Assembly: GCA_014058105.1 (NCBI GenBank)
Contig: JACGCM010000337.1
Span: 59,831-123,830, forward strand
DNA from: Kingdonia uniflora
Lineage: Eukaryota > Streptophyta > Magnoliopsida > Ranunculales > Circaeasteraceae
Length of the DNA stretch: 64,000 nucleotides
Reading direction: 5' to 3'
Shown: positions 7,311 through 62,559 of the stretch, piece by piece
Position numbering within the stretch: position 1 is the first letter of the stretch
Layout of the letters: every line of letters starts with the position of its first letter
The notes under the pieces: generated by a model
The model's input: the letters and a program-made list of their open reading frames with translations, nothing else
Told to the model about the DNA's origin: nothing
The model's database searches: none
Position numbers and translations under genes: made by a program

Positions 7311-7319
7311 GAGCTCACG

Positions 7320-10055: not shown

Positions 10056-10286
10056 ATCCGGCTAACAGATGACAAACTATTATGCTACAATTGGTTCATC
10101 AAAAGGTCAGTACAAATACGTATCGATCACTAATTCTACTATCACTCAAAAAAATTTGTAACATAACCTTCACACTCTATATACTATATTTAGTTGGTAT
10201 AGTTTGAATAATCCTTTTTTACATTAATAATAATGCCTCCTCAGTCACTCAAACTCTCCGACGGTACATAGCCCCGTGAACTTTCT

Positions 10287-13936: not shown

Positions 13937-13996
13937 GCCCCCTAAAAGAAGAAGGGTCTTCTTCTTCTCAACCTTAGCTCAATTCTCGTGAGCTCG

Positions 13997-14700: not shown

Positions 14701-14746
14701 GTACCAAGGTCTTAAACCATAGGCCTTGCTCCATCACATAATTTCC

Positions 14747-17904: not shown

Positions 17905-18201
17905 GGTACAGAAGAAAAAGGTTAGAAAGTCAGAGAAACACTTGGTTAATCACAAATGCAACAGCAAACCACAGTACTATTTATACTATCATTAACATTA
18001 AAGCCGACTTTCCAAATTCCCAACGTTAGAAGGAATTCCCATGTACCAAACTTGACCAGAACCATTGGTTCTAGGAGACCCAACAACCACAATAGATATT
18101 CATGAAGACGCATTAGAAATGATTCCCCAATATTAATTACAGCATTAATGAAGCTTCTCAACCAACACCACTCGTTCACAATGCTTCTCGTGCTCTTGGC
18201 T

Positions 18202-18214
18202 GAGAAGGGGCGGT
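18202..18214 (+). other. Polypurine tract of the Tat-like element
   Basis: A GAGAAGGGGCGGT-type purine run lies immediately before the 3' LTR start at 18215. Confidence 0.65.
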
Positions 18215-18782
18215 TGTAGTGGCTTATTCTGCATCTCGAACTCAAGTTCCAACATCGACCATCATACATTTACTCGACCTCGTCAACATACACGTGGTAC
18301 ATTTATGGCACATTACAACTACAAAGTTTTACTTATTATTCTCGACCTTTACATCAACAGCTCAAATCAACAAACACTCTGTCATTAATGAAGCCGTTAC
18401 AAGACGGGAAAATCAGACCATTACACAATCAGTTCAAAGACTCACCAAATCTATATTGTAACGTTCATCATTAAGAATAATAATGGTCGTCTAACGGTCA
18501 TATTAAAAAACCTATAAATAAGACAAGAGAATTTCATATGAAAGACGGATAAATCCTCACTCAAACACTCTATACAGAATTGTTCATAACATCATTTATA
18601 ATAGCTAGCAACCTTCAACAAAATCTCTCTCTCTTTCCAAATCCTCAAGAGAGGTCATGGTTTTTAACCTATTCAGAGGTTTTCCACGCTAAACTTTGTA
18701 TTAGCAATTCTCATCATACACTAACGTTCTGATTATTTTTGGTGTAAAGGCTAAAATCGTATTACGAAATTAGGCTATTACA
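18215..18782 (+). repeat. 3' LTR of the Tat-like element (568 bp)
   Basis: It starts TG and ends CA, and matches 3455-4027 along its full length. Differences are mainly transitions plus a shorter CT run. Flanking ATACC (18783-18787) repeats the five bases before the 5' LTR. Confidence 0.9.
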
Positions 18783-35800: not shown

Positions 35801-38800
35801 TTCTTACTATTGTAAATAGTTATAGGAGTGCGGTCTAATAACCGTTGCTAGACATTATTTTAGTACAAGAATCAAAAACTCATTTGGACATTGGGCTTGG
35901 GCTTAAGTTTGGGTATGGGCTTGGGGTTTTTGTTCTCATTTAAAATGGGTCTTTCATCTCTTTCATTCCAACGGCTATTACATTGATAGACCTGATCTTC
36001 AGGGAGCGTTTTGCATGCATTCAAAGATTGTTATTGAACGTTTTGCATGCGTATGACCGTTGTGTTTTAACCTATAAATACCTTCCTTCCTCCTACAAAC
36101 AAAACACACAAAAACTATTGTTCATCGTCTTCTTTCTTTCTCTCTCTAAAAACGGTTTATACTTGAGGTGCAAACTCATTCAGTTTTTACGTTGACTTCC
36201 GGCGAAGCTACCGTATATGCTCGTTGTATCCTGGGAAAGTACTTGAGATACTCTTTAAAGAGAGTGCGACCCACACCTCGAGCACTAATCATCTTGTTAC
36301 TCTTTCAGATCAATCGCTGTTACTATTACTATTGTTCAGAACTCAGTGTTGCTGTCACGAAGCTTAATTCTGTTGCGAAGTTCGAGTTTGTTGTTACTGT
36401 TCCTATACAAAACTGTTACTGTTACAGTTCGAAATAGTTGTTGTTGTTAAAAGATCAAATCTGTTGTTACTTAGCTGAGCTCGAATCTCTTTGTTGCTTC
36501 GACCTAACATTTGTGGTTTCGAAATTGGTTTTACGAAACTGTCCGAACTGAAGTTACTGTAGCGGTTGGTATTCGAAGCACTGTAGCTGTTAGTGTTCGA
36601 AGTTACTGTAGCTGTTGCTGTTCGATGTCTCTGTAGCTGTTAGTGTTCGAAGTTACTGTAGCTGTTGCTGTTCGATGTCTCTGTAGCTGTTACTGTTCTG
36701 AATTACTAAACAGAAAAAGAAAAGAGAAAGCTAATTACAGGTTCCTTTCAATTTTATTCCACAATTTTAAAGAGTATTTGTTTCCGTAATATATCTCTTA
36801 CTTTAGACGTGTTGAAGTTTGATTCCAACAAACCCTCTAAGTTTGATGGTCTCAACTTCAAGAGATGGAAGAACAAAATGTTCTTTTATCTCACACTTAA
36901 GGAAGTGGCTTATGTTCTAGAACAAGAATGCCCAATTGAACCTCCCGTTCCTGTACCTACGGTAGACCCTGACCTGATTACAAATGAATATGACAAAACC
37001 TTATAATCAATCTCGAACTGGACTGAAGCTGACTTCAAATGCCGTAATTTTATCCTGAACGGTTTAGTAGACGAACTGTACGATTACTATCTACAGTCCG
37101 AAACTGCGAAAACCGCTTGGGAAACATTACAGAGGAAGTATGATACGGAAGAGGCAGGCTCTAAAAAGTTTGTTGTAAGCTGATATCTCAAATTCACTAT
37201 GGTCGACGATAAGACGGTAATTGCCCAATCAATGAGTTGCAACGAATTGCGCATAAGATTGTGTCCGAAGGGATACCTCTTGATGAACAATTTCAGGTTG
37301 CCGTGATGATTGACAAATTACCGCCTAATTGGAAAGACTATAAAAATATCCTACAATACAAGTCAGAGGAACTTACCATGGAGAACTTGATTACTCGTCT
37401 TAGGGTTGAAGAAGAATCTAGAAAACAAGACCTGAAAGAGGAAATCCTTTTGGTTCAAGCCAAAAGGAAGGTCCATTTGAAACCTAAAGGGAAACCTTTC
37501 AAGGCTAAGAATGGCGGTAATCTGACCAACCGTCCTAATGGTGGTAATCTGAATAACCGTCAGAAAAATGGACACCAAAATCCTAACAAGGGAACGAACC
37601 AACAAGCCCCACCATATAACGGAACAGTTTCTATTGTGTGCTTCAACTGTAACAAGCCTGGACACATCTAGAAACTGCCGGAACCGCAAACCTGTTGCTC
37701 AGACGAACATTACTGAAGAGCCCTTAGTGGCTATGATCACGGAGATCAACATGGTCGGTGGAACCGACGGGTGATGGGCCGATTCGGGCGCTTCTAGGCA
37801 TGTTTGCTATGAACGCAATTGGTTCAACACCTACAAGGAGACTGAAGACCAGAAGGTGCTACTTGGGGATTCCCATTGCACCAAAGTGTTAGGAACTGGA
37901 GATGTTGAACTGGTATTTACCTCTGGAAAGACAGTGACTCTAAAGGATGTGATGCACAGTCCTGAAATGAGGAAGAATCTTGTTTTTGGCTATCTTCTCA
38001 ACAAGGCAGGATTTCAGCAGACCATTGGCTCAGATCAGTACATTTTAACTAAGGGTGGGATTTTTGTGGGAAAGGGTTTTACTTGTAATGGAATGTTCAA
38101 ATTGAGTATTGAAATGAATAAATCTGCTTCTGCTTACTTATTGTCTTCTTTTAATATTTGGCACTCTAGACTATGTCATGTTAACAAGAAGCTAGTACAC
38201 AATATGAGTAAACTAAGTATGATCCCTAAAGTAGATTTAAACGATTTTGATAAATGTCAATCTTGTAGTCAAGCTAAGATTACTGAAACCTCACATAAAA
38301 GTGTTGTAAGAGAATCACAACTTTTGGATTTAGTACACTCTGACATTTGCGAAATGGACGGTATATTAACTCGAAATAGTAAAAAATATTTTATAACTTT
38401 TATAGATGATCACTCAAACTATACTCAGGTTTACCTAATACGTCACAAAAGTAAAGTTATAGATATGTTTAGGACATATGTAACAGAGGTGAAAAATCAG
38501 TTTAATAGACACATTAAAAGATTTCGTAGTGATAGAGGCACAAAGTATGATTCACATGAATTTAAAAACTTGTATGAATCCTTAGGGATTATACATGAAA
38601 CTACTGCTCCTTATTCTCCATAATCTAACGGTAATGTTGAACGCAAAAATAGAACGTATACTGAGTTAATAGTTGCTATTTTACTTAGTTCTGGATCACC
38701 CAAATCTTTATGGGGTGAAGCCTTATTATCTGTTTGTCATGTTTTAAACCGTATTCCTCATATCACATCTGAATTATCACCTTATGAAATTTGGAGAAAA

Positions 38801-41800
38801 AGAAAACCTAATGTTAACTATTTTAAGGTTTGGGGTTGTTTAACCTATGTTCGTAAACCTGATCCTAAACGGATAAAACTAGCTAGTAGAGCTTTAGAAT
38901 GTGTTTTCATTGGTTATGCTATTAACAGTAAAGCTTACAGGTTTCTTGATATTAAGAATAATGTAATAATTGAATCACTAGATGTAGATTTCTATGAGGA
39001 CAAGTTTCCTTACTTACTGAGGGACAGTGGGGGTAGTAGTGGGGGTTCTCAACCTTCTACGTCTTCGACCCCTAATGTACCTAAAGTAAACGTTCCTAGA
39101 GCTGTGGATTCTCATGATACAGACCCAGAACTTCGTAGAGGTAAACGTTTAAAGATTGCTAAAGATTTTGGTAATGATTTTGTTGTATATACCTTAGAAT
39201 CGGACCCCAATACTACCAGGGAAGCGTTAACCTCAGGTGACGCTAATTTGTGGCAAGAGGCCATTGATGATAAAATGGATTCTCTTACTACAAACGAAAC
39301 CTGAGACTTAGTTAACTTACCTCCTGGTAGTCGTTCTATTGGGTGTAAATGGATATTAAAGAGAAAACTTAAACCATATAGTACTATAGATAAATATAAG
39401 GCAAGACTTGTAGTAAAGGGATATGTGCAAAAGGAAAATATTAATTTCTTCGACACATATTCCCCAGTTACTCGTGTGGCAACCATTAGAGTATTATTGG
39501 TTGTTGCTGCCGTGCACGATTTGTTTATTCACCAAATGAATGTAAAAACTGCATTTTAAATGGAGAGCTTGAAGAGGAATTATATATGGATCAGCGTGAA
39601 GGCTTTGTAGTGCCTGGTGAGGAACACAAAGTCTGCAAGCTGAACAAGACCTTATACGATCTAAAGCAAGCTCCAAAATAGTGGCACGACAGAATCGACC
39701 AATTACTTCTTTCAAATGGTTTTAAGATTAACGTTGTTGATAAATGCATATATTATAAAGTATCTGGTGAAAGTTGTATTATGATATGTCTATACATTGA
39801 TGATCTACTTATTTTTGGTTCTACACTTGGTATCATTTTAGAGACCAAAACCATGTTTAACAATAATTTTGATATGAAGGACCTAGGCGAGGCTAGTATA
39901 ATTTTAGGCATGAAGATCGCACGCACAGACACTAGTATTACTCTTGATCAATCTCATTACATTGAGAAGATATTGAAGAAGTACAAATATTTTGACTGTA
40001 GACCTGCTTGTACTCCTTGTGATCCACAAGTTAAACTTTTAACGAACTTGGGGGAGGCAGTTAGAGATAAAGAATACGCAAGTATTATTGGTAGCCTTCG
40101 CTATGCTACGGACTGTACTAGACCCGATATAGCTTATGCTGTAGGGGTTTTATGTAGATTTACAAGTAAACCAAGTTTGGCGCACTGGGGTGCTATTGAT
40201 AGAGTTATGCGGTACCTGAAAAGGAACATGAACTTGGGTTTACACTATCAAAAGTTTCCCGCGGTCCTTGATGGATTTACCGATGCAGATTGGAACTCAT
40301 TTTCAGATGATTATAAAGCCACCAGCAGATACGTGTTCAGTATAGCTGGAGGTGCAGTTTCTTGGAAATCCAAGAAACAAACGATTATAGCTCAGTCGAC
40401 TATGGAGTCTGACTTAGTAGTACTAGCTACAGCTAGTGAGGAGGCAAGTTGGTTGAAAGACCTCTTGTCTTATATTCCTTTATGGAGTAGGCCTATACCG
40501 CCGATACTGATCCACTCAAATAGTACTACTGCGATAGCCAGAGTACAGAACAATTAGTATAATGGTAAGAAGTTAGCGATACGTCGCAAGCACAGTACGA
40601 TGAGAGGTTACCTCACATCTAGTACTGTTACAGTGGACTTTGTAAGATCGGAAAACAACTTGGCAAATCCTTTGGCAAAAGGACTGTCTCGTGACAAAGT
40701 GTGGAGCACATTTTTAGGGATGGGGCTAAAGCCTGTTATAGAATCACAAGTGGTGGGAACCCAACCTAAATGACTGGAAATCCCAATAAATAGGTTCAAT
40801 GGGGAAAACAAATCACTGTGATATAGAATCATGCAAATAAGGAGTTTGTCACTCCAGAGTTCATCTCGCTATACATAAATATGCATGATATCTTGAAGCA
40901 AATGTTAGGCTGAGTTTTCTTAAACTCTTAATGAGTTCTATATCTCATTCTTTGAGTGGGGCGTCTAGCTACAAGAACATTCTTCATAGACTCGCCAAGG
41001 TGATTGTGGAAGTGCGGCCGCTTCCTATGAGAAATTAGGCTAACTTCTCTAAAGCCTTCACCTAAACTAGGATTAAGCACATGGCCGAAATGTGCTGGCA
41101 TTTAGGAATTGCACCTGGTAGGGTTGTATGTGGTTTTCCACACTATATAAAAGCGAATAATGAGTTCAAGACTCTGATCACTTATTATTCTTATACGTTG
41201 AAGATTGTCCACTACGTAAAGGTTCAAGTCTAAGGACACCTTTACTTATGTACATCTCTATATATTAAAACCGTTATCTCGTTTCTTTTCTCATTCAGAA
41301 AGTTTTTTAAAAGTGGGGGACTGTTGGATTGTTTCAAAAACTCATTTGGACATTGGGCTTGGGCTTAAGTTTGGGTATGGGCTTGGGGTTTTTGTTCTCA
41401 TTTAAAATGGGTCTTTCATCTCTTTCATTCCAACGGCTATTACATTGATAGACCTGATCTTCAGGGAGCGTTTTGCATGCATTCAAAGATTGTTATTGAA
41501 CGTTTTGCATGCGTATGACCGTTGTGTTTTAACCTATAAATACCTTCCTTCCTCCTACAAACAAAACACACAAAAACTATTGTTCATCGTCTTCTTTCTT
41601 TCTCTCTCTAAAAACGGTTTATACTTGAGGTGCAAACTCATTCAGTTTTTACGTTGACTTCCGGCGAAGCTACCGTATATGCTCGTTGTATCCTGGGAAA
41701 GTACTTGAGATACTCTTTAAAGAGAGTGCGACCCACACCTCGAGCACTAATCATCTTGTTACTCTTTCAGATCAATCGCTGTTACTATTACTATTGTTCA

Positions 41801-44800
41801 GAACTCAGTGTTGCTGTCACGAAGCTTAATTCTGTTGCGAAGTTCGAGTTTGTTGTTACTGTTCCTATTCAAAACTGTTACTGTTACAGTTCGAAATAGT
41901 TGTTGCTGTTAAAAGATCAAATCTGTTGTTACTTAGCTGAGCTCGAATCTCTTTGTTGCTTCGACCTAACATTTGTGGTTTCGAAATTGTTGTTTTACGA
42001 AACTGTCCGAACTGAAGTTACTGCAGCGGTTGGTATTCGAAGTACTGTAACTGTTAGTGTTCGAAGTTACTGTAGCTGTTGCTGTTCGATGTCTCTGTAG
42101 CTGTTACTGTTCTGAATTACTAAACAGAAAAAGAAAGGGGAAAGCTAATTACAGGTTCCTTTCAATTTTATTCCACAGTCTCCTTAAAAGGGAAGTTAAT
42201 ATCTTATGTAGTTCCCTTAAACCATGTATCCAGAAGTAGTAAGCTTTAACTTGTAGTTTTGGAAGCTTTTAAGTAAAGAGAGCAAGAAGGATAAACCACA
42301 TTAGGAGTTGTATTATCTTTGAAACCAAATCATGTACGCCCTGGGAATCTTATTCAGGACCTCAGTAGTTTATTCTCAACTTTTAATTTTTTGATTAGAA
42401 CACTTGATAGTTTGGACTAGTGATGGATAGATTTAAGTACGGAAGACGTGTTTTGAATTAAATATATGTTGGTCTTATGGTCAGGCTGCATGATATGTTT
42501 TTCTTCCTATTATTGAGATCAAATTTGAAATATTAGTGATAACTTATTGTAGTTAAGTACGTCATTTCTTGGACATCTTACTAAGGTTGGACTATTAAGC
42601 TTCATATTAGTTTCTTGGGGATATTGATGGTGCATAAACTCTGTGGGTGGAGTTGATTACGAGTTATTTCATCTAGTTGGTTTAGTGTTTGGACACCGTT
42701 AATTTTCTTACTATTGTAAATAGTTATACGAGTGTGGTCTAATAACCGTTGCTAGACATTATTTTAGTATAAGAATCAACGAGTCTACGTTGGACACGGT
42801 AGCGTAGTGATGGCATCATTCTTCGTTAGATTAGAATTCTAAGTTTGAGTTGTTTAAGAAAGACCGTAGATCATTTTTTACATTTGGGCAAGTCTTTTAT
42901 CCTACAACTTAGATGATTCTTTGGTATGTCTTCCGTGATAGTTAAACATAGCTATGGATTTCCATGATTCTAGTAGTACGTGACTTAGATTCGCTTTGAC
43001 GCTTAGGACTTCTTTTCGATATAGTCGCACTTGTTGAGCAGGTTACGACAGATAGATCATTGGATGTTGGAGCTTTACTTCATTTAATAGAGTTCCCACT
43101 TGTTATTAAAGTGAGGGCAGATAGGTCATTTGGTTGTAAGAGCGGTAGGTCATTTAATAGAGTCCCAGATACTGATTAGGCAAAGGCAGGCATATCATTT
43201 GATTCTTATTTGAATTCAAACTTCTTATTTTCCATTACGTTGGACGATTTTGAGTTATTGTACACAGTAGGGCTACGCTGTTACGGTCCTTGGATTCGAT
43301 TCCCTAAACAAAAGATTCGGTTATTGCTAGTTAGTGCCCAGGGTTGCAAGCCCCTAAATTATTTCCTAGTTACTTATCGGCCTTGTTATTCTTTGTAAAT
43401 ACTCCTCGTGGGCATATATCCCTAAAAGTTAAAATAAATCAGGCTTTAGACCTGTAGGTTGAAATTCTTTGAACACCCTGATCGGGTGCGTTACCCGCCA
43501 ATTCCTGGCTCAATAAAAAGGAATCCGTCAATCCCTGGCTCAACATTAAGGGATACGTTTCTGTTAAATACAAAAGGGTGCGAGAGTGTGGTCCCACTGA
43601 ATTAAAAGTGACCCTGTGTACTTGACTTACTAATTCTCTTACCACAGCTACCTTACCTCTTTAGATCATAATAACTAGATTAAGTTTACGATAGCACACA
43701 TATCTTGCTAGGATTCTAGTTGTATTTAGACCGTCTTCCTCAGGACTCGTAGCTTGGTTGATATTCTCCTATACTTCCCTTGGGTTCTTCGTGTCTCAGT
43801 GTTGGTGATTATCTTGGTCTGTCATGTCTTATAACCTTGGATATTTGTACTTGTTGGGCGTTGCTTGCTTATGCCTTCTACATATATTTTTCAGATGAAT
43901 CGTTGCAGTAGCGATGGTAGTAAGTTAGAGCGAGCTAGACTTGCCAGTTATGGAATTCTAGTTACCATGTGGTAATATTTCTGGTTATATCTCTTTTTAG
44001 ATTATTCTTCCACTGCGTAGTTTGTTAGTGTTGTAGATGTAGTTACACCTCAAAATTTGTTTTAAATTGTAGTACATCTTTTGGGGTTCATCTTTGGGAT
44101 GCCCGACGTTACACCTCAAAATTCGTGCTCATAATAGATTATTAAGAAGAGAATTTTGGGGGCGTGACAATTTAGGATCCTTGCTCGTCCAAGTCAATAA
44201 TTAATTGGAGACATTATGTAGATAGTTTTGGAAATTTTGGATCTTCTATAATAGGTTTCGAGTTAGGGCGTGTGCACAAGTAGGATACTTAGATTTGTTG
44301 TCTGAATGAATTCTCTGCTCCACTATTGTAAATGCTTTTGTGAAAAATCTGGAACCTTAGATTAAGCTCAACTACTGTATGACATTAACTTTTTGAGCTA
44401 AAAGCAATTTGTTAGAAGCTTAACTTGAATTATGCATTAACCGATATCTGATGAATATCCTATATATTCTCTTAAGCCCTTTAATAGTTGGCCAAGATAG
44501 CAATACAATAAGCACACAGCTCGCAGTTTCCAACAAAACCATAAATAGATGACGGTCGAAAAGAGACTATTTCTTCGGAGCTACTCACAAAAATAACACA
44601 AAATCATCCTTCTGAACCAAGAGTTGAGCTACAATCTTTGGTAGGAAATCGATCTAAATCCATAACTCAAGGTTTGATGGCTTCTTATAGCAATCTAAAG
44701 CCCTCACCAATCTAAAGCCATCTCTTGATCGATTCTTATAGAAAAACTCCAAGGTTTGATGGCTTCCCAATATCTTGAGACTTAAAATGAGCAAAAAAGG

Positions 44801-47607: not shown

Positions 47608-50600
47608 CACTACACCAAAATTAAGCAATTACCAATCTATTTTGGAAATTGCCACGGATTTGATCCCTAGTATACTTGAAACGGACATATTCCGTGGCAA
47701 ATTGGGGAAGTATCCGTGGTAATTCTAATTTTTTTTTACTTCAACTCAAACGTTTGAATTGGCTTTTAAATATAGCAGCTGCAAGCATCTCCAACAAAGC
47801 AAACTTAAGGTTTTCAATTTCACCATTTTCGGTTTCTCAATCGATTTTAGATTTTAGATTTCTTAATCAATTTTGCAATTTATGAAGATTCGTTGATTTT
47901 CCCATTGCGTATTATTATACTCGATCTGCAAGTAACTCTCACAATCTCAAACCTTAAGTCTCTTGTGATCTCGTTCTTGAGTGCAGATTTGATCTGAAGT
48001 TAGAGTTTTGAAGGATCTTGGAGGCTATGTTGTTGCATCGTAGTTGCATCTGAGATGAAATTTAAATCTTGGATATCCAATTTTTTAGTTCTTCTGATCT
48101 TGAAAGATTGGATTTCATTTCATTGTTGTTACTTGATATTGAGTGATTTCATGATTTTTTAATTTAGCATCGTTTGATTCCTGATTGTACTGTTTGATCC
48201 TTCTGTGATAATGTATGATGTACGTTCAGGAAAGCTAGAGTTGAAGCAATTAGAATAGAAGATTTTGAGTGATGGTATAACCTCTGGTGATCACAAATCT
48301 TACTCAGCCAAAGCATTTCATACGCAATGGTACACATTATTCTCTCATTTATGCTCTTTAGGTATCTTTGGTTTGCTCAATCTATTTCTAATTTTTGATA
48401 TTTAGGGTGTTTTTTTAGAAACTCATGAAAAATCACATGCTGCTTGGCATTTCAGATCCTCGTCAGTAGCGCTCTAAGTAACTATTGTTATTTTTTCTTT
48501 CACTTTAAGTGAATCTGAGTTATGGCGTGATTCACATTTGTTTATTGATTGGTTTGTGCAATGTAGAACTTGAAAATAGATAGTGATTCTTACGCATCGT
48601 GCATCGTGGATGTTGCACCCCAAGGGGCAAAAATGATGCTTACTTGTCCCTTTTATTCTTACTTTTTTTTTTGTTGATTAGGTTCTTGGGCATGTGTTTG
48701 ATTACTCGAGTTGCGGATCATGTTCGTGTAGGAATGCAGTTTAACCCATTTGTGAAGTGAGAGGATAAGGTACACAATTTGTAATGTACGATATCTTTTA
48801 ATGTGTCGTCCATCCTTATGGAACCACGCTTTCATTTTTGAGAGTTTTCATAGACTTTGATCTTTGTAAAGCAAGTCATCTCCTTTCGAGACCCGTGTCA
48901 TCTTTGAGCTCCTCTTTAGCCTTTATAAAATCTAGACCAGATCAAGACTGGTGGAAAACCAATTTTATCAAACTTTAAAATCCTGCCATAAACCAAAAAG
49001 AAAATATTTGAATTTTGAAAGGTTGAACCAACCATGATCTCCTTCGTTATTGAAATTTCTAGATTTCCCTTTCTGCTTTTGCCACAATCACACAAACAGG
49101 AATTGCGCAGTTATTCAAATCAATGTCCCCGCCTAAAACTGTAACAACCTTAAATAAACCGAAGAACTGAAATAAAGATGTTAATTATTAGCCTTCTTCC
49201 AAATTTAATGAAGTACACTTTATATGATGATGAAACAGTCGAAGTTTATATATGCTCTTTTAACCAATATTAGGACATGTTTTACGTTATCCTTTTCAAA
49301 GGTACCCTTGATAAAACAACTCTTTGATTTTCTACAGGTTCCACAAAGAGAAGCGTTCTTTTTATGCCCCAAAAACTGGGGGGGCGCTATGATGGAATTT
49401 ACAGGAAAATGTTGGCGCAAAATTAGAATTTTGGTGTGGTATCATTCTTATTTGCTTCTAATCAAATATATTTTACCTAGCCATTATGTCCTGTTGTATT
49501 TACTGGAAAGTAGTTTCTGATGAGAATATCACATATCTGGGGTTTAAGGTTTGCAGATATATATTTGCCCGTTGTGACAATGAACCCGCACCATGGACAA
49601 GGTTTGTATTTTGTAACTTTGTTTAAATTTAAGAGTCCCAAATATATTATATAACTAATAATTAATTTATATTATGTTTCTTGGTTGCAGCGATAAACAT
49701 GGGGATTGCCCAAGACCTTTGCCCCTGATTAAAGAGCTAAATAAGGCAACTGATATCACAAACAGGAAGAACGTCCCTTCTTGGGATTACGAAGTGAGTT
49801 AATGCAATTTCTTTTTACTTGCACATCATAAGTGGAAACTGGTTGTTGAATATTGTGTAATGGATGAGTATATTTTGAGTAATGTGATATACTTGAGATT
49901 GTATTTATAGTAAAATAGAATCTCATTATATAGTTGTTGTGGCATATCCCATAAGGATTGGACCTAATCAAACAACTCATACAAATGAGAGTAAAGAAAT
50001 ATTGAAGAGTAAACTAATCACATAGCACAACACAAGGTTTTTTGTTAAAATTTAGCAAAAAGTGGGAAAAGAGCTCGTGTCTTCTTTAAAAAAGAGACAG
50101 CAATAAGTTACATCATTCCCTTACTTTTTCTGAAAGAACTGGTCTATTTGAACTCCTTAAATCTTGATTTAAGATCAGCCTACTAAAGAAATATATCAAA
50201 AAATCCTTTGAGCTTAACACACTCCCCAAATGAAATCACAAATGACTGGGGCAATCCTGTACCATATGGAGGACTCTCCTGCCTCCAACCCCTGTCTACT
50301 ATTCCACAGCATACCACCAAAAATTATACCTAATAATTTGAGCTTACTTAACATGAATGAAACTTGGTTACAAGAGCATAAAACACTACTCTCATGGCAG
50401 TAGAAAAACACCATTAGACGTTGTTCATTTTGTTTTCACCAAGCCATAATGACATGGTTATAGTATATGTACAATATATTTACTTACTAGTTTTATGTGC
50501 TAATGGATTAAAATTTGTGCCCAAGTCTGGAATTACTAAGTTGTAGGACTTGTAGGGTACTATCTTTCTACAAACTCGTCTATCCCATTCTAATAGACAT

Positions 50601-51264
50601 GTACGGCACAATAATCCGAGTTATCATTATGTATAGTATTGAAGGTAACATAAAAATAATTAACCTTCACATTTTTTTCTAGTTATATCCAACAATCTTA
50701 TGATATTTTGACCTATACTTTCTTTTGTAGGGGACGCATGGTAGGTCAAGTCGTTATGTGTTTCTCAGACTTTGTATGGGATGTGTCTACTATAAGGAAT
50801 CCTCTTTTAATTGTCAAGTAAGTTTGTAAGCACATTGAATTGAGCCTATGAATATTGAATGAATTTGTGTGTTTATGATTGTTGTATGAACTAGCGAGTT
50901 TATGATTGTTGTAAATGACTGTTTGATGAACGTACGAGTTTATGATTGTTGTATGAATTATGGTCTGATAATTTTTTTGATATATTTCTGATTTTTATTT
51001 TTTTTGAAAAAATGAAAAAAAAAATTGCCACAGACTTTTTTGGTGGTAAATAAATAACCACGGATTAAGATTGTGTCTTACCTTGTTTTATAACACGGTT
51101 TATATATGTAGTAATAAATTAACCACAGATTAAATCTATGGCAAAATAGTAGGTTAAGCTCGGATAAAGTTCGTGGCACAAACCTCCACCACAACCAAAA
51201 TCAGTGGCAAATAGCATTTTACCACAGATAGAGTCCATGGTATTTTGCTAAAATTGGTGTAGTG
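47608..51264 (+). mobile_element. CACTA (En/Spm) transposon, 3.66 kb, non-autonomous
   Basis: The left end is CACTACACCAAAATT and the right end is AAATTGGTGTAGTG, inverted. TAT at 47605-47607 and 51265-51267 is the 3-bp target duplication. Subterminal motifs of the CCACGGAT/ATCCGTGG type recur near both ends (47650-47725 and 51025-51240), as expected for transposase-binding sites. No transposase frame is present. Putative exons of unknown origin lie inside. Confidence 0.88.
49557..50817 (+). pseudogene. Putative captured gene fragment inside the CACTA element (three exons)
   Basis: Segments 49557-49601, 49691-49793 and 50731-50817 have AG acceptors and GT donors. They join in phase into 78 stop-free codons: YIFARCDNEPAPWTSD, then HGDCPRPLPLIKELNKAT, NVPSWDYEGTHGRSSRYVF, and a Cys-containing end. 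A fourth exon may start after TCTACAG at 49339. I do not recognise the source protein. Phase-compatible splice sites plus an open frame suggest a captured host gene rather than transposase. Confidence 0.5.
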
Positions 51265-51631: not shown

Positions 51632-52024
51632 GTACATGCTTCAAAACACCGCACTGTTTCAAACTTTTAACCCAATTTCAGAAAATCAGTTTTCTCACTC
51701 AAAACTTCCCTCCCTCTCTCTCTCTCTGTAACTCTCATCAAACTTACCATCGATGCCACTTTAATCTCTCACTTTTTCTCATATTTGTTCAGGTGAGGCT
51801 GAGGCTTTTGCTTGTATGGAGTACACGATATAGTAGTGAGCTAACAGAACTGTGTATACCACAAAAAATAAATCAACAAGAGGCACTTTTACAAAAAATA
51901 AAATATTGTGATATACAAACAGTGAGCTAACAAAATTGTGATATACAAAAATTGGATAACCATGTATACTACCAATAACAATGAGGTAACAAAACTGTGA
52001 TATACAAACATTTGGTCGGCAACC
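51632..52024. repeat. Spacer with a degenerate tandem repeat
   Basis: TTGTGATATACAAA recurs at about 51906, 51937 and 51996 (second base A or C variants). Each is linked to GAG(C/G)TAACA(A/G)AA, giving two to four imperfect units within 51835-52015. A CT microsatellite lies at 51713-51728. Confidence 0.5.
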
Positions 52025-52471
52025 CTATTTGGTTGTCAAGAAACCAATAGCAATCATGTCATTCACTTTATACCTTTTTACATTGTGCTCTCTGAGTAAT
52101 GTCTTGAAGGTCATGTTCCTCACATCAAAATACCTAGTCAGTTGTTCTTTTGCAAAAGCCAGAGGAATTTCCAGATTTGCATGCCCATAGAAAACAGTAA
52201 AAACTGGAGGCATTGGTACATGAAACCTTGGAAACAAACGAACATAATGATTGTCTGCCTCTAAACCAAATCACCAGTACGTACTAGTATCCATAAGAAG
52301 GTTCTGGAACCTCTCCTCGTTCCACGTAGTATTTTTCTTACGTGCCCAAAAAAGGGGTAAGAATGTATATGCTTCAGTGTGGTTAATGAAGACCACAACC
52401 TTCTCATAGTAAGTGGATAGTAAATGCGTCATATGCCTATACTCCACATGTTGATGACCAAATGAACATGC

Positions 52472-52795
52472 CTACAACAAACGTTCATGCGCCTTCTCAT
52501 CGGCTGGAGTGAATTGTATGCCCAATGTTTGGTTGAAGATACTCTTCCAGAATATGGGGTCCTTACAGAGAAATGACTTTAACGATTTCATTATATCTGG
52601 GAATCCATGCAGGCTCTGGTGCTGAATCGTGGCAGAAACCCTAAAAGCATAATTGTTATCACTGATTTCGACGCCACGAACATCTATAAGATACTTCGCC
52701 CACGGTTGCAATAGAACTTCTTCTAACTTCTTTTTAGCCATATTCTCCCTCCTAGCAATGATAATATTTTTAAGGGTTAGCCGCGTGGAAACCAA
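52472..52795 (-). pseudogene. C-terminal exon of the PMD gene region, unrecognised domain
   Basis: 107 codons with basic entry (NIIIARRENMAKKKLEEVLL) and a folded-looking part (FPDIMKSLKSFLCKDPIFWK). The next minus-strand frame, at 52025-52237 (PRFHVPMPPVFTVFYGHANL), probably belongs to the same product after an intervening broken stretch. The family is not recognised. Confidence 0.4.
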
Positions 52796-54450
52796 GTCTT
52801 CTTGATAATCTCCCTTGGGTCCTTATTGTGCTATTGTAAAAAATCTTTCATTCTGATCAAAACGTTTTTCAAAGGTTGGGTCCCCCATGTCTCCCATCCC
52901 TTCACTCGCAAGTGCCTTCTTCAATGATTAACGTTAAACCTTCTGTAACAACAACAACTAGATATTAGAGTAGACACTAATAGGTGCATCACCAAAGCTT
53001 ATCTATAATGACATGGCATGGAGTAACATAAGTACAAGAGTTAGGAATATGTCATACCTATTAATTGTTATTTACTTCTAAAAACTTCTTCATTTCTTCA
53101 GCATTAACCAACTTCTAACGCTGAAAAAAAAACTCCAACATTAGGATTAACAGTGAAATAAACATTTCATGAAATAAATATGGAGAGGGGGGCTTACAAG
53201 ATCATTAGTTTCCTCCGTAAATCTCGCAGCTTCTTTTTTGTACTTGGATGTCCAGTTCCATATCTGTTCCAAAAACATAAAGGAGATGAGCATCCAGTTC
53301 AGGTATTTGTGATTTGACAGTCAATTATTGCTGATTTTGACAATACTATGTTGTCTAACCAAAGACAAATTGTCGAGTGTGAACTAAATCAACAATTACT
53401 TCAGTTGTTATTGTCGATACATTAGTTAATTCAATAATATTTACGCATCACTGTTACCACAACCAAACAAATATTGACCAAGGAACACAAGTTGAATGGA
53501 ACATCTGATTATCCCTAACATATAACATACAAAATACTCAAGTGCTTTACAAAATTAAACTTAAATAAAGTCAATACTATCAAACCTAGCCAAGACATAT
53601 TCCATTCACTTTTGGATAATCAAACACAAACTCCAATTCACTAACTAAAACTAATATCATTCATTTTGAATGACTTACAAAATCTTCTTTCACAATCAAC
53701 TTCTTCTTAAGTTCCTCATGCGCAGATAACAAGTCATCATACTTCTTTGCTAGGTTTATGTCTGTCATAGGCTTATGTGATTAGAGAATAGTTAGAAGTT
53801 CAAAACACGCAACTCAAGAAAAATGTTACCATAGTTAGAAATAATATAGCCACTAACCAATAGATCCCATACAAGTGTGGGTAAACTCACAGGTGTAGCT
53901 GGTGAAAGTTGTAAGTCTATCTGCTCCATCAAAAGGGCATTGACCGCTTTTAGTGGCTCATTATCTTTAGACTGTACACATTTTGTAACATAATTACACC
54001 ACATGCAAGAATAATTAATGGACCCCAATAAGTAATTATCTTATACACTACATTACCTTCTTATTCAACTCAACAAATAAGTTCTCATTACATTCTTCAA
54101 TGCCAGATTTTTGCCTTAGCTCTGTCTCCAAAATTACATTTTTTTTCTTGTAAATTCTTGTACTCCAATATCTACAAACAAAAATATTATTACGAACATC
54201 ATGGTTTGGAATAAAATAATCAATGGAGGGGATAATGATATATGCCTAAGACCTTACCTTCGCATCTAACTGCCCCGGTAGATCTGCGTATGCTAGTGCA
54301 TATTGCTCGTCAAGTACATGTTTTAGCTGCATGTCCTCCTTCATTTGATCAATGTTTTCACTCAGCAAATTACATTCACTTGTTTGAGGTTAAGATGAGA
54401 TAAAATAATTATTTTATAACCCAATTAAAACTGTACATGTGAACTTCAAA

Positions 54451-54624
54451 ATTGTCGACCCACTGGGGATTCGACAATTTTCTAATGTGTCTTACTATAT
54501 TATTGTCGATCTCGAAAATATTACATATAAATGAATTCACAAATAAATACCATAATTGTCGAGCTCGACAATATGATATATTTTTAACTTTACATATATC
54601 AAGATAATTGTCAAATTCGACAAT
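54451..54624. repeat. Palindromic repeat array 1 (52-bp period)
   Basis: Cores at 54451, 54503, 54555 and 54607 are spaced exactly 52 bp. The copy at 54555-54572 is the perfect palindrome ATTGTCGAGCTCGACAAT. The copy at 54607 is ATTGTCAAATTCGACAAT. The first has a spacer between the arms. It lies between exon-like frames of the PMD gene. Confidence 0.85.
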
Positions 54625-55662
54625 TAGATATAAGGATAACTGTGGATAAACACTAACATTAAGTTACATGTAGATAGTGAACAACAATATACTAGTTACT
54701 GGTATATGTTGGCTTAAGGAAGATAGTGAACAACAATAACTGTGGATAAACACTAACATTAATTGTGGATAAATAATGACCTTCTCTTTCAGGGCCTCTG
54801 CTAGCTTTATGTTGGCTTCTAACTCTTTATCTTCATCTTCCTTAAGCTTCTGAAGTTCGTCATTTAATGTTTTGATTTGTTTATCTAACCTGCAAGATTC
54901 AGCCCGTGTTGGCATGGTATCATGGGTATTTGGAGACAGAGTGGCATGCTCATTGAGCTACAATTTTGTGAACAGAATATTAGACAATAAATATTTGAAG
55001 CAAAAATGAAGGGAGTGAACAAAATATAAGGGAAGACATACTAACTGATGCATGATATTGTTCACTACCAGATTCATAGTGGTCTACGACAGCATCCTCA
55101 TTGACAGATGCTTCCTTCTTTCGATGAATTCTAAATATCCCAACGTCATCATCTGCAGTCAATTCAATGGTAATGGGACAGATCATCGTCCACGAGACAG
55201 TGGCAAACTACTCCAGTATCCCTCCATATAAACTGGAGGCCCCTCTCGTACCTTCCCCCCTTTTAGCTTCTTTATTCCCAATCCTTCCTTCTTCGCGGAG
55301 CGAAGAAGCAATCACCCACTCATACTTATGATTGTATTTCCTCGGCTCTTCTGAGATTCAAGGTTTGACACCTCTAGACACAAAGCTTTATGGGGATGCC
55401 TTGTTCCCATGAGAACTGTCGCATAACCCTATTTTGGTAGTAGGGCTGAGCATGGTCTGGACTTGCTAGTGCACCATAAAAATAGGTGATCTCCTTGAAA
55501 ACCATGTGCAAAATCCATTTTATCTCTATATGGGTCCCATACAACCTACATAGAAAAATGAGCCAAATGTATTATGTAAGAACAAAAAAAGAGAAGGGAA
55601 AGGCATCTAAATAAAAACATACATTAAATTGTTTACCCAGTAGTTCTACAGTATTTAACTAT

Positions 55663-55882
55663 ATTGTCGATTTCGACAATATAATATATGCATAACTCAA
55701 TTGGAATTGGAATTGTCAAACTCGACAATATTGTATATGCATAACTAGAACTACATTGCCATAATTGTCGAGCTCAACAATATTATATATGATAACTAGC
55801 TACATTGCCATAATTATCAAACTCGACAATATTATACATTGCCTGATCCATATACACTACCAATATTGTCGACTTCGACAAT
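55663..55882. repeat. Palindromic repeat array 2 (49-52 bp period)
   Basis: Five 18-bp cores start at 55663, 55712, 55764, 55813 and 55865. They vary around ATTGTCGANNTCGACAAT. AT-rich linkers contain CTACATTGCCATA in several units. The array lies in the PMD gene, just downstream of the mobile domain. Confidence 0.85.
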
Positions 55883-57538
55883 ATGTACATATGGTTGTGT
55901 ATGTAAGTATATAACAGTGACAATAGACCTTTGTCTAATACCAAAAAATTATGGGATAGTTCATCTAATAACTTACATCATCGACTTTGTATTTGTCCAA
56001 TGTTTCCCTAAACTTTAGTAAGTCGGACCATCGTATTTATCCGTAAACAGATTCGCCCCATTTCTAACAGTACAGTGCTCATATTGGTCGGAATCCATCT
56101 CTATCGGTATCCCAGCAAACTTTGGGAAATGTGCAAAGATCCACGACTACTGTATATAGATAAACAAAATTAAATTAGTAAAGGATAGGTTCATGCATAT
56201 GTATCAAAATTAGTAGTAAAGAGTACGGGAATAACCTTGAGTAGCATGGTATAGCATGCAAATTGTCTCCCTCATCTCGAGATGCTGCACCGAGATTATG
56301 ACATGTGCGCCAGAACTGCTGACCTCATGACCACTTCTTTGCCACTATGTCCTTGGCAAACAAGTTCAGATACCGTGCGCTGACATCAGTACCCTTTTTC
56401 GTGGGGCATAAAAGGAACCAAGTACATATAACATGTATGCATGAGCAATAGACCTGGCTATTAACCCCTTTTTCTTGGCTCGCAGCAATACCGTCACTAA
56501 GAACCTTCTCTAATTTATAGGCATAATGTTCTCTTAGTTTTTCAGTGACAAAGAATTACCGCACCACCAGCTTTCAAAGCCTTGAATCCTTTTAAATCTA
56601 GCAAAAGATCTTCTAGAATACCTTGAGAAGCGCAGGGAATCCCCAAGTCCTGCCAATTACAGTGGTATCACCATCTGTACCAAAGCCAATCAGTTGTTCC
56701 ACATCCCAAAGTTGGAGTCATTTCCCCCCATGAAGGGGAAACTATTAGTTTCTAGCTGCCAACATCGGCAAAAAGCAGAAGTAAGGCCAGAGTTATAAGA
56801 ATCATATAATATGGCCCCAATTCTATCTAAACCCTTCAACATAACTAAATTTTGGACCATTTGTAGTTCCTTTGTAAGATCCCATGTTGATGGTGATGGT
56901 GGATACGAAGGCACGCCTTCTCTTGAACAATAACATCGATTAGGTCAAAAAAATGAGTGATTTCCAAATAAAATTTAACAAATAATGGGAATAACAAATA
57001 TTAATTAAGTATTATACCTGCCCTAACGCGATCGACCTCGCCTATAGATCTTAAAGCTCTGAGCAAACTAGTATCAATTGGACCAACCTCTTCGTTGTTT
57101 GCAGCCCCCTCGCCTTCACAATTACCCTCAACACTACGCTCACAATTCTCTCCAGTACTATTATATTAGCATCACAATCTGTTGGGAGCGTTGGTTGAGC
57201 TCCCAAAGTAGCTCGGGCTGACTCACTCTGAATTTGAGAACCGCCAGTCACCCAAACCTCATCACCATCTTCAATGTGAGCTTCACTGTGTTCAGAAACA
57301 CCATCATTTGTAGTTTCAAAGTTAGGAGGGGATTGTTCAACAGTGTTTAGAGGGGCCATTGTTGTCTTCTAAATAGTTTTTTCTTTCTCTTATATGTAAC
57401 TAGATCTCCAAAGTCTGGGTATTCCGGGTCTGCTCTATCCAACTCTTTCTTTCTTCTATTGGAAGTCGTAGGAGACACTTTCTCTTCATTGTGTACATGT
57501 ACACAATTTTATAGAATTAGTCTAAGTCTCAGTGTAAT

Positions 57539-57787
57539 ATTATCGAAATCGACAATATATGTACTTGGTAATTGTCAAAATCGACAATGTATATAGCAAT
57601 GCTTTGTACATTATCATAATTGTCGAGCTCGACATATTTTGTTTCATAACTTTAATTACACTTGATAAATATCGATTATGATAATTTCTATTTTCTATAA
57701 GTCCAATTTCACAGTTAAATTGTCGAATTCAACAATACTATATTTTCATAACTCTAATCCAATTACCATATTGTCGAATTCGACAAT
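57539..57787. repeat. Palindromic repeat array 3, 5' of the PMD gene
   Basis: Cores start at 57539, 57571, 57619, 57719 and 57770. The last is the perfect palindrome ATTGTCGAATTCGACAAT. The array sits 180-430 bp upstream of the PMD start codon, where a promoter would be. Confidence 0.85.
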
Positions 57788-58917
57788 TTACTCATCAATG
57801 CATAGAGGGGACATGGGCTAGGGGTACAAGCACAGAGGGGAACGAAATTTCTAATTTTGATTGTAAATGAACTATAATTATTGGGGAATATTGGGATATT
57901 GTCAAGGTATAACAGAAAATTCCAATACCTTCAAATAGACGCCAATTTTCACTTTCTTTCTGTTCTCCAATATTCGGGACCCCAATATTCAACGCAACAG
58001 CAAACCTTTAATTATTCCTTCCCTTAAAGAGAAATTCCAAAAAAAAACTCTCTCCCCTGTCTCTAACGATGAGTATAACAGAGAGAAACTGTTCGAGAGA
58101 GATAATGGTTTGGTAAAAATGGAGAGAGAAACTACTCAACAGAGAGAAAGAGATTTAAGAGAGGGAATTTAGGAAGGTTTAGGAAATTCAAATTACACTC
58201 TAATGGTAATATAACAGAGTTGGTTTGTAAGAGAGAGAGAAGAAGGTGGTTGTAAGAGAGAGAGGGGGAAAGACAACAATGTGATGTTTCAAATCTTTGT
58301 AAGAGAGTCAACAATGTGACGGCTGACATAGAGAAGTGGGGCAGGATGGACCAAAATATTTTCCACCTCATTTCCTATATAGCAAATCACTAGTTTTGAG
58401 AACCATTTATCTAATAGAGATAAGTGGTTGGTATTGAGTGAGATTTGAGTGTCTCTAAATCCTCTCCCAAATTTGAAAACTCAATCTTTTCCAAAAACCA
58501 ACTCAAGTTTCTTCCACAGTGCATTAACAAACAAAAAGAAATCAAACAAGATGTCTGATTTTTTTTCCCGAAAAACAACAACCATCTAATGCCTAAGACT
58601 TGGCGCTTGCTTGATTATTATTTTTCTCTTACAAAAAAACCCCCTTTAAATTAGACTTGGCGCCTAACTTTAAACGCTGTTTGCAAACTCAAAGATCCAA
58701 ATTTTAAACTACAGAACATCTTTATTTCTGCAGGTTCAAAATTTAAATCCAACCCAATCTAATCTGCCTTGTCTTCACTGTATATCGATGATAGAGACCA
58801 ACATTGGTCCAAGTTAATAATGTAACTGGATCGGACAAATATGTTTCAAGATGGGTGGGAACGCTACAGAAGGAAAAATCAATCATACACGATAATTTAC
58901 TTTTGTGATTAATCACA
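57788..58917 (-). other. Intergenic region upstream of the PMD gene
   Basis: It contains GAGA/CTCT-rich stretches (58080-58270) and otherwise AT-rich sequence. A minus-strand frame at 58132-58371 is low complexity over the GAGA tract. No gene is recognised. Confidence 0.5.
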
Positions 58918-59420
58918 TTTTTTAGACCTTAATATCCTTCCACCGTGAGTCCATATAATAAGAATCATTATTTTGTGCCCACTTAAAGAAAGTGATCTTC
59001 CTCCACGGTCGTCAACCTCTAACTTCAAAACACCATCCATGAAAACCTTTACTTTTCCACCATCAACATCATGAATAACGTTTAACCGAAACCACTTATC
59101 ATAGATATATGGGTCAAGAACTTTTGTTTGATAGTACATAAGCGAGCTGTCATACCCAGACGAGCAGTCGTATCCCTGAGAAGAGAAATTGCAAGCATAC
59201 AAACAAATTGGCGAGGGACACATTTCATACTTGCTTAACTGTAACAAAATTAGAGACTTACTCGAATACAAACTTCCGTGGTTTAGTTTTGCTTATCATA
59301 GAATGGGGTCCGTAGAAAACACACCCAGAGCTTGTGAACACCATCAATGAAACTATATCTCTAGCTCTCTACAATGTCATACGGTCTCTGGATTTCAATG
59401 TTTGAGTTGTTAAGCAGAAA
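58918..59420 (-). pseudogene. Citrate-binding-protein-like gene (alginate lyase 2 family), broken
   Basis: Two exon-like blocks. The first, about 59420-59262, encodes NNSNIEIQRPYDIVES, then RYSFIDGVHKLWV. The second, about 59178-58918, follows an AG at TTCTCTTCTCAG and encodes SSLMYYQTKVLDPYIYDKWF, NVIHDVDGGKVKVFMDGVLK and, in another frame, FKWAQNNDSYYMDSRWKDIK with a stop at 58920-58918. This is the C-terminal half of the plant citrate-binding-protein family, which folds as a jelly-roll and is usually vacuolar. At least one in-frame stop and two frame changes are present. The N-terminal part is absent. Confidence 0.75.
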
Positions 59421-59641
59421 ATTAGGGTTATAAGTAACAAAGGCAAATATTTATCTCAGGCAAATATTTCAATGTTCAATGTCATACAACCGAAGAAGAG
59501 AGATCTACTTCCACGTAAAATATTTCATTTATTTGCCACACATCATACACCATACAAGAGAACCATAAATTAAAGAATGGAGGATCAGAGAAACTGACCT
59601 AAAGAATGTAAAATCTTTACTGTACAAGTTACAACACATTA

Positions 59642-61388
59642 CTAGAAGAATGCTATTATGATGAACAAGGAAGACAACACCATTCCCAATGACCAGAAAG
59701 AACCTCTGCAGAGGATACGAACGGTCTCTTCTTCAACGATTTCGATAGGAAGTGGCGTCTCTAGAGGTAAATGCCGGTGAAAAGCATCAACGGCAGCTGC
59801 AACGCCATCTTCGTTTTCTATCTTTTTGGCTAGCTCAATTGCTCGTTCCTTTACCTGGAAATATTCCACTCATTAATAACAATTAAGAAGTGTCAAAATA
59901 GGATAATTCACGGCGAGGAAGGATTTTCATCTCCTCATAGAAGAAACATGCACCTAAACTTACCTCTGGTTGGCATAAATCTTATAGCATTTGAAAGACC
60001 TTCCACACTGAGCTCTGATATGGGTATTTGTTTAGGTCCAAGTCTTATTTGGTGAATTCTTTCACCCAGAAAAATTGGTCCCCGAAAACGGTATAATGGT
60101 AGTTGGACACTGGGTTGTTGGAGATTACAAGATGAAGCCATTCATGAGTACATAATCTTATAAAAACACCAAAAGGCAAGTGAGAAACATCCAAGAAAGA
60201 AAATTACCCCGCTCTCAGTCCCGTGGCCATCGTCCCAGCGCCACCATGATGAACCTGCAGTCAAGTTTCCATGTAAGCAGTCAAATTTAAATAACCATTT
60301 TGTGCTTAACTTCTTTAGTTGATATTACATTTCATAATTTCACAATAATACATATCCCCTAGGGCATGAAACAAGGAACTCACCACTGCAGCACAATGAG
60401 GAAATAGCCAATCATGAGGATAATCCTCAAGAAAAAAACATTTTAGGAACTTCTGGAACTGCAAATTAGCTAGAGACTCCGTTAGAAGACATTTTGACAA
60501 AAGTATTATACGCATCTAAGCAACAAAGAAAAAAGAATGTTTAGGATACTCGAGAGAAAAAATATAGGCCAATTCAAGGGCCTAGCTAGATGTGAAACGC
60601 ATCTGGTCAAGGGCCTTTAGTTCAGGTAAATAAAAAAGAAACACTGTACACTGTACTAAGAACATAAAGCTCTAGATGTGAACACGAGACGAACAAATAC
60701 TATAGGATGTTGATTGCCAAACTTAAAGCAGAATAAATTAAGTAAACTAGACCTGGTATCAATTAAAGCTCACATTCATAAATAGTAGCAAGCTTATTGG
60801 CAAGTTACGAACAAAAAGCATTCCAGTTTAATGAAGAGCTAATTGGGTAAATAACCTAAGCTTTCCCTCCTCCCACACAAGACAACCCAATTTTGTAAGC
60901 AGACAGTTGTTTTGCTACATCAAAAACAAAAGAACATTTGAATGAAAAAAGAAAAAATGCTTACTTATTCCAAGATCTCCCCACCCTCTGTCAAGTATTC
61001 CCCTTTGTCCTGTATCTTTTAAGGCCTCCAAATAATATTCGTAGTCTTCTTAGAATTTTCAAGGCTGAAGAAAAGAAATGGAACAGGTGTCGATTACAAT
61101 TAACTTTAGAAAAACCAAGATAGGGGGACGTGCAAATAAAGCAAATGGGAAAGCCTCGGTAATTAATGTTATTAAGATAAGAACAAAACAAAATATATGC
61201 AATGCAACTACAGTACGCTCATCCATAAGGTCAATGACAGTTTGAAAAAGACTATTACCATGCTTCCAAATCGACATATATAGGCTTTTGGTCCGTCTTG
61301 AATCCATTCTATAAACTCTTCTGAGGGCTTATACTTTGCTCCAAGATTCCAAAAACAAAACCAACAACATCAACTAAGGGCCCCCAAT
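59642..61388 (-). CDS. Sterol 3-beta-glucosyltransferase, UGT80B type, 3' exons (frame-damaged)
   Basis: Exons of about 61388-61259, 61064-60965, 60458-60384, 60254-60208, 60109-59964 and 59854-59642 run to a stop at 59644-59642. They encode GPLVDVVG and EEFIEWI, then ALKDTGQRGILDRGWGDLG, EDYPHDWLFPHCAAV, HHGGAGTMATGLRAG, CPTTIIPF with GPKQIPISELSVEGLSNAIR, and KIENEDGVAAAVDAFHRHLP. HHGGAGT and the preceding W/H-rich stretch form the UDP-sugar-binding box. The enzyme glucosylates membrane sterols using UDP-glucose. Nearly every exon needs one or two single-base corrections at homopolymers to read through. The 5' part is missing from the window or displaced by the gypsy element beyond 61.4 kb. 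Confidence 0.8.
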
Positions 61389-62089: not shown

Positions 62090-62420
62090 ACCACGAATTT
62101 AACCGATCGGTGTAATCAGAAAATAGACCCGAATTCCTCTGTGAGAATATGCCTCCGATATCCATGACTCCTCTGAATCAGGCTTGCCCAACCAATGCAC
62201 TTTGTACATATGAATACCCCCTCTCTTGGCATTCATTGTAATCATCCTAAAACAGTTGTCAATACGGTCAAACTCTGTTGCTGAGAAAGAGAATCGGTAA
62301 AGCAATAGCCGGCACGTGATCACCACAAAAAGAGAAAGGAGACTCACATTAAATCGTGAGAGCATTGCATATTCGTGGGAGGTCCAGCTCGTAAGCGTTC
62401 TCCCCAATACGTTGGATAAT
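62090..62420 (-). pseudogene. Chromodomain-like C-terminus of the gypsy element
   Basis: YKVHWLGKPDSEESW (about 62160-62204) matches the Y-x-V-x-W-x-G-x-x-x-x-E-x-S-W core of chromodomains fused to plant gypsy integrases, thought to guide integration to marked chromatin. The upstream linker is out of frame. Confidence 0.7.
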
Positions 62421-62559
62421 ATGAAAAGGAGCCGTTTGTCGAAGGGATAATTTGGAACCCACTCCGGAATAACGTTTTCTCAATATACAACATAACCACA
62501 TCGCCTAGCTGAAAACTGAGTCGACGACATGTATCGCCAGGGCCTTATAGGGAGCATAT

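Follow-up and report, generated by a model that had tools for sequence, protein, structure and literature searches.

Arrays of an 18-bp palindrome are a built-in feature of a Mutator-like transposon family with a plant mobile domain gene in Kingdonia uniflora

Here we show that arrays of a short palindrome, ATTGTCGANNTCGACAAT, in a 64,000-nt stretch of Kingdonia uniflora DNA (the window) are a built-in feature of a family of Mutator-like DNA transposons (MULEs) in this plant. Structurally complete copies are 11.4-12 kb long and carry a FAR1/MULE transposase gene and a plant mobile domain (PMD) gene, placed tail-to-tail on opposite strands; complete refers here to structure, the coding blocks of most copies bearing stops. 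The window copy is a truncated, dead relic that has kept the PMD half and four of the eight arrays.

Results and Discussion

Palindrome arrays in the window

The window contains 14 near-copies of ATTGTCGANNTCGACAAT at up to three mismatches against 0.37 expected, and none of 100 shuffles reached 14. Thirteen lie in the three arrays named by an earlier, sequence-only reading and one lies outside them, at 53327. The traces suspected near 53340-53430 proved to be real and form a fourth, decayed array. With decayed copies added there are 18 sites in four clusters: the 14 matches, the decayed unit at 57668, a wide-armed copy at 54451-54478, and half-sites at 53369 and 53410. The features of the locus are as follows.

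51842..52027, no strand assigned: sequence 3' of the PMD gene with homology to 7572-7799 of region L006; similarity stops at ~51842
52028..57484, minus strand: PMD gene relic, ~12 coding segments with frameshifts and stop codons, mapped by tblastn with family proteins
52028..52942, minus strand: C-terminal PMD exon, 64-74% identity to family proteins in the tblastn listing, with internal stops
53327..53417, no strand assigned: fourth, decayed array, sites 53327, 53369 and 53410, the latter two half-sites; inside a PMD intron (~53264-53663); probably position 5 of complete elements
54451..54624, no strand assigned: array 1, four units; inside a PMD intron (~54384-54777); position 6 by order and distance
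55663..55882, no strand assigned: array 2, five units; inside a PMD intron (~55546-55973); position 7 by order and distance
57539..57787, no strand assigned: array 3, six units, one of them decayed (57668); 5' of PMD exon 1; position 8 of 8 by order and distance
58316..58468, minus strand: remaining inverted end (TIR), the PMD-side end of the element, with end sequence GGGAGAGGATTTAG

None of the 18 sites falls in the mapped PMD coding segments: array 3 lies upstream of the first segment and the other arrays lie in three introns, which agrees with the earlier placement of two arrays (1 and 2) among PMD exons. Array 3 is upstream of the PMD start as had been described, but the gap is ~55 bp rather than 180 bp, since exon 1 extends to ~57484 by homology.

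Four window copies have perfect 8+8 arms and make up four of the nine perfect 8-NN-8 palindromes in the window. Exactly two copies are perfect over all 18 bp, at 54555 and 57770, confirming the original count. The 8-mer ATTGTCGA occurs 11 times in the window, each time inside 53-58 kb, and a variant with a single intact arm reads ATTGTCAA. In the first unit of array 1 (54451-54478) the arms are 12 nt apart against the usual 2, an addition of 10 bp or about one helical turn.

Periods of 49-52 bp, with all cores on the same face of the DNA, had been proposed for the arrays. Spacings in the window actually run from 32 to 53 bp and their phasing is weak (R=0.55, 11 spacings), and strict same-face phasing in the window was dropped. 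For 213 spacings from 20 sequences of related copies the best period is 10.2 bp (R=0.61); the 71 spacings outside 46-56 bp, also from related copies, give R=0.44 at 10.5 bp, as high as none of 5000 uniform draws. Counting each of the 26 distinct spacings once gives p ~0.08, and we regard helical phasing across the family copies as suggestive only.

The transposase half and the second TIR are missing from the window, where no transposase match was found, and beyond the PMD locus the window has no match to the TIR or to the PMD family. A search of the window alone for TIRs and target duplications gave nothing convincing, because one element end is missing. An LTR retrotransposon was rejected as an explanation of the PMD locus, which has many introns and MULE ends and has no direct-repeat pair around the gene.

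Complete elements

Three elements of ~11.5, 12.0 and 11.4 kb are enclosed by inverted ends of 166 bp (91%), 181 bp (84%) and 153 bp (84%), and TIR length across the complete elements ranges from 150 to 180 bp. The ends read GGGGAAGGATTTAG, the left end of the first element being GGCGGCGGATTTA. Perfect 9-bp target duplications flank three of four complete elements (TTTTGTATT, ATTATGTTT and CTAAACTTT); around the fourth, C42b, none was clear by eye. A MULE domain (PF10551, E=2.5e-17) lies at L006:5168-5410 and a FAR1 domain (PF03101) was found in L006 and L020 (E 5e-8 and 3e-9), with related transposase pieces in L010, L015, L018, L020/L021, L023 and L029. With a MULE domain, long TIRs and 9-bp duplications all present, the family is a TIR-type MULE. 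A 30-base pattern of the TIR end (up to three mismatches) matches 288 places in the genome (135+153) against none for the reversed control, and an element chosen by its TIR pair alone has the CTAAACTTT duplications, both genes and 36 palindromes (up to three mismatches).

Eight palindrome positions are shared by all four complete elements examined, with their order and approximate distances preserved. They lie upstream of the transposase gene, between transposase coding segments, between the two 3' ends, at four places in the PMD gene, and upstream of the PMD gene. The number of units per position varies between copies from 1 to 11, and the site between the two 3' ends is down to one copy in the element chosen by its TIR pair. 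The eight shared positions in four of four PMD-bearing MULEs bear out the suggested link of arrays of putative dimer-type sites with both a PMD gene and a mobile element. That the arrays mark the ends of the element was disproved: in each of the four complete elements the first palindrome from either end lies ~495-660 bp inside, and the rest are distributed along the entire element.

Gene-less copies

Five copies of 2.2-2.7 kb fall into two subfamilies, one with L005, L008 and the first element of L020 and the other with L017 and L019. Each has TIRs and 11-15 palindromes, and no match to PMD or transposase was found in them. Among the matches listed, they have TIRs, subterminal pieces and array units in common with complete elements. 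Their 9-bp duplications are perfect in three of the five, agree at 8 of 9 bases in one, and were not found in one. The arrays thus do not always accompany PMD genes, as these family copies carry them too, and the retention of arrays by copies with neither gene suggests that the arrays serve the element in cis, beyond its own genes.

The main rival to the reading we favour below is that the element's own FAR1/MULE transposase binds the palindromes, as a dispersed form of subterminal repeats, either to transpose or to regulate the genes of the element. The element does encode a FAR1 DNA-binding domain and a MULE domain, and mobile copies devoid of genes keep the arrays, three of five with perfect 9-bp duplications, which is what a requirement for mobility would predict. 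Against this, the TIRs of the four complete elements are without the palindrome, its outermost copies being several hundred bases inside, and some arrays are more than 5 kb from both ends, between coding segments. The site of the FAR1/FHY3 family is CACGCGC, which is unlike the palindrome. We consider transposase binding rather unlikely.

A transcription factor of the host, such as an auxin response factor, might instead bind, with the arrays being enhancers amplified for cell-specific expression. Auxin response factors recognise TGTCGA half-sites, and an inverted TGTCGA is found inside the arms; arrays 5' of each gene and in the gaps between coding segments are also placed as enhancers might be. 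In gene-less copies, however, the retained arrays would be enhancers with no gene to drive, and the spacing of auxin response factor half-sites differs from that of the palindrome, which makes a host factor an improbable binder.

Genome-wide distribution

In the Kingdonia uniflora genome (1.003 Gb) ATTGTCGANNTCGACAAT occurs at 16,409 places at up to two mismatches, compared with 265 for the reversed control. The description of the arrays as confined to one gene locus is thus true inside the window and untrue of the genome. Nineteen regions with 14 motif clusters were taken from the first-listed places, all on contigs C2-C42, and grouped by eye; the sample is non-random. Overlapping regions were trimmed by hand before units were aligned and positions counted. 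Coding segments were mapped in detail for the window; elsewhere, family 'PMD' matches lying on antisense transposase or on arrays were excluded from the exon count, such false matches arising because the query gene models read through transposase antisense and arrays.

Clear PMD-family exons were found in 8 of the 14 clusters, those of L018 being strongly diverged; in L018 the genes are present and the TIR is absent within the stretch read. Five further clusters (L005, L008, L012, L017 and L019) have the family TIR and no PMD gene, although L012 has a single TIR, and L008 has one 189-bp PMD-like segment beyond the element borders that was left out of the PMD count. In five arbitrarily chosen control regions neither the motif nor the TIR was found (0/5 each), and one region had PMD-family matches (L028, two matches).

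The sequence-only reading would have been overturned by a common dispersed satellite with no link to PMD loci. The motif is indeed common across the genome, but the link is there, with PMD exons in 8 of 14 clusters and the TIR in another five. A free dispersed satellite was ruled out on the same evidence, since 13 of these first-listed, non-randomly sampled clusters have family TIRs or PMD exons and one has neither. This sole exception, L009 (G000:C11:949500-959400), has four palindromes with 51-bp spacing at 4780-4950 and neither TIR nor PMD exon in 9.9 kb.

Conservation of the palindrome and loss of CpG

Across the 14 window units, identity is 0.87-0.90 at the 16 arm positions, 0.49-0.52 in the aligned linkers and 0.29-0.33 at the central dinucleotide. 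The 143 units from all regions give 0.88 for the arms (a value inflated by picking units by motif match at up to three mismatches), 0.46 for the centre, where AT, GT and AC are common, and 0.32-0.38 for ungapped linkers. The three main window arrays tile with no unit skipped, and in their nine internal units 14 of 144 arm positions are changed. Linkers on their own score 0.531 compared with 0.437 when shuffled (maximum 0.515 of 40), so that they are nearly saturated.

Among the 143 units the core positions keep 220 of 286 CpG, and the linkers have 27 CpG observed vs 83.5 expected. Core losses are divided between CA (33) and TG (29) and are, on sequence grounds, the mark of past methylation; in the window alone they are lopsided (CA 6, TG 1). 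With cores masked, the three array-bearing window introns contain 1 CpG vs 19.8 expected, and a value of 0.05 CpG observed/expected or less was not seen in any of 107 control segments (400 nt each).

Fifteen arm pairs are changed in the window, 14 of them without compensation, which favours protein binding over hairpins; selection for an RNA hairpin or for a cruciform was rejected for this reason. Two arms, a loosely constrained 2-bp centre and almost no compensation point to the palindrome as a candidate site for a protein dimer on DNA.

A neutral or host-side origin would have the arrays arise by tandem duplication of an A+T-rich spacer, or serve as hairpin RNA feeding siRNA and silencing of the family. 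Arrays do expand and contract (1 to 11 units per position), the CpG-poor linkers suggest methylation in the past, and PMD genes of the tea plant are described in the available text of PMC10673657 as yielding phased siRNAs. Even drift would be expected under such an origin, yet the window arms stand at 0.87-0.90 against 0.49-0.52 for the linkers, compensation is seen in only one of 15 changed arm pairs, and eight positions recur in four of four elements. We hold this origin to be very improbable.

The PMD gene and its protein family

By homology, the window PMD gene is a decayed member of a large Kingdonia uniflora family. Its product is ordered as a basic N-terminus, the plant mobile domain, a long coiled coil and a C-terminal domain. 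Every match listed in three protein searches (the best 120 of 139, 45 of 45 and the best 120 of 141) is from Kingdonia uniflora, giving 182 distinct proteins. In four of the 182 the palindrome is translated strictly in frame (mean 0.14 and maximum 2 in 200 shuffles), since gene models from other copies extend across arrays: P0007 in the same intron as array 2, P0128 directly before the start, as array 3, and P0021 and P0140 in an intron of the distal coiled coil. Manual analysis places two decayed palindrome copies in P0106 with a spacing of 52 bp.

A Pfam-type scan of eight family proteins found PMD in six and DUF7745 in four (two above the cut-off); UDPGT matched one fused gene model, a coiled coil was matched weakly, and two proteins had no match at all. 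DUF1985 and DUF287, the domains of VANC, were absent from the eight. PDB profile searches returned 0 and 2 matches, the two at E 0.055 and 0.11 and taken as chance.

Median dN/dS is 0.355 for the PMD coding block (26 pairs, 0.22-0.70), 0.41 for the C-terminal exon (27 pairs, 0.30-0.68) and 0.31 for the transposase coding block (6 pairs, 0.17-0.77); the pairs are non-independent, L006 and L007 being one C-terminal copy and the window being counted twice in the PMD block, and some are near saturation. From these values the element proteins appear to have been under purifying selection while the family spread, although stop codons occur in most of the coding blocks compared.

A possible role for PMD in anti-silencing

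The reading we favour, tentatively and at somewhat less than even confidence, is that the palindrome is a candidate site of an element-encoded homodimer, most plausibly of the PMD protein, with an anti-silencing role by analogy with VANC of VANDAL elements. The coiled coil of PMD would provide the dimer, dense sites would let the protein find all family copies whether or not genes are present, and the bound protein would keep silencing (DNA methylation) away, as VANC does on the motif arrays of VANDALs. PMD is preferred as binder because the arrays are placed in non-coding intervals away from the ends, as for VANC and unlike the terminal sites that a transposase requires, because gene-less copies suggest a role in cis, and because an anti-silencing role has been speculated on for PMD. 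VANC anti-silencing is described as targeting motif arrays in introns and upstream regions in the available text of PMC5735166 (for VANC21) and PMC10398659. The speculation that PMD proteins borne by transposons are anti-silencers is that of the authors of PMC5418596 and PMC8616336, whose available text names no DNA targets.

Several observations count against this reading. The eight family proteins scanned gave no match to a known DNA-binding domain, and predicted structures of the C-terminal domain and the PMD are too poor for a fold search (mean pLDDT 48 and 41). The cluster with neither TIR nor PMD (L009), the single TIR of L012 and the lack of a TIR beside the genes of L018 also weigh against it. 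Array retention in gene-less copies is equally compatible with transposase binding, and host PMD proteins of Arabidopsis are described in the available text of PMC5418596 as aiding silencing, not opposing it.

A broader proposal, possible but doubtful, is that PMD proteins are dimeric, sequence-specific DNA binders whose transposon-borne genes coevolve with palindromic arrays in the non-coding intervals of the element, a second, independent anti-silencing system. Were this true, the host proteins MAIN/MAIL1 would represent a DNA-binding fold that was domesticated and recruited for silencing.

Other features of the window

A CACTA-like element at 47608-51264 has inverted ends CACTACACCAAAATT and a 3-bp TAT duplication, and no match to the ATTGTCGANNTCGACAAT motif (up to three mismatches) was found in it. 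A coding-like stretch at ~49.3-49.8 kb in this element may be a captured piece of a host gene; the one ORF scanned had no Pfam match. A second CG-centred type of palindrome, TATTCGAATA/TGTTCGAACA, forms arrays at 2082-2230 and 31811-32055 with periods of ~20-72 bp, the latter array being flanked by LTR-like direct repeats at 31279-31546 and 34142-34398 (91%). Direct-repeat pairs at 3455-18782, 21331-28722 and 35270-42779 (257-894 bp, 89-96% identical) are probably LTR elements, the last having two pieces in swapped order. Beside the end of the PMD element, on the minus strand at 58909-60515, are fragments that we take to resemble a citrate-binding-like protein and a sterol glucosyltransferase (UGT80); no supporting family match was found for the two pieces scanned. 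A remnant of a Gypsy-type chromodomain lies on the minus strand at 62099-62479 (Chromo E=5e-4, below the curated cut-off).

Comparison with known systems

The subterminal repeats of CACTA (En/Spm) elements are a known case of a repeated protein-binding motif on a transposon. Unlike these, the Kingdonia arrays extend beyond the subterminal regions along the whole element, and its ends are not CACTA. CACTA subterminal repeats were rejected as an identification, the element having ends GGGGAAGGATTTAG and a 9-bp duplication instead.

In the literature searched, which was largely open-access and had Repbase and the Kingdonia genome paper outside its scope, no report was found of a PMD element bearing palindrome arrays, nor of a TIR-MULE in which PMD is a gene of its own. 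Searches with the motif strings gave no plant transposon arrays among the matches listed (titles and abstract starts).

The closest likeness is to the VANDAL/VANC system of Arabidopsis as set out in the available text of PMC5735166 and PMC10398659: a Mutator-like transposon with a transposase and an accessory gene, and dense arrays of a short motif, of tandem-repeat origin, in introns and upstream regions, the motif being concentrated in the family. Anti-silencing by transposons with coevolving motif arrays is already known from VANDALs. The Kingdonia element is laid out like a VANDAL yet is not one, because it has TIRs and no DUF1985 was found. VANDALs are non-TIR MULEs (available text of PMC13317346), whereas the Kingdonia TIRs are 150-180 bp; its accessory protein is a PMD protein rather than one with DUF1985/DUF287; and the VANDAL motif is given in that literature as the 9-base YAGTATTAY, compared with an 18-bp, CpG-containing palindrome in Kingdonia. 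If PMD is the binder, motif-array anti-silencing would have arisen more than once, from unrelated proteins.

PMD-containing MULEs of grasses and Amborella, as described in the available text of PMC5418596, resemble the Kingdonia element in that a MULE carries the PMD, which in those elements is fused to the transposase. In Kingdonia, a eudicot, PMD is instead a separate multi-exon gene on the opposite strand, accompanied by palindrome arrays. The role of the plant mobile domain is left open in the available text of PMC5418596 and PMC8616336, and a TIR-MULE with a separate PMD gene and palindrome arrays offers a concrete candidate DNA target for PMD proteins. The 16,409 sites in one genome, on copies with and without genes, form a natural data set for the coevolution of arrays and protein.
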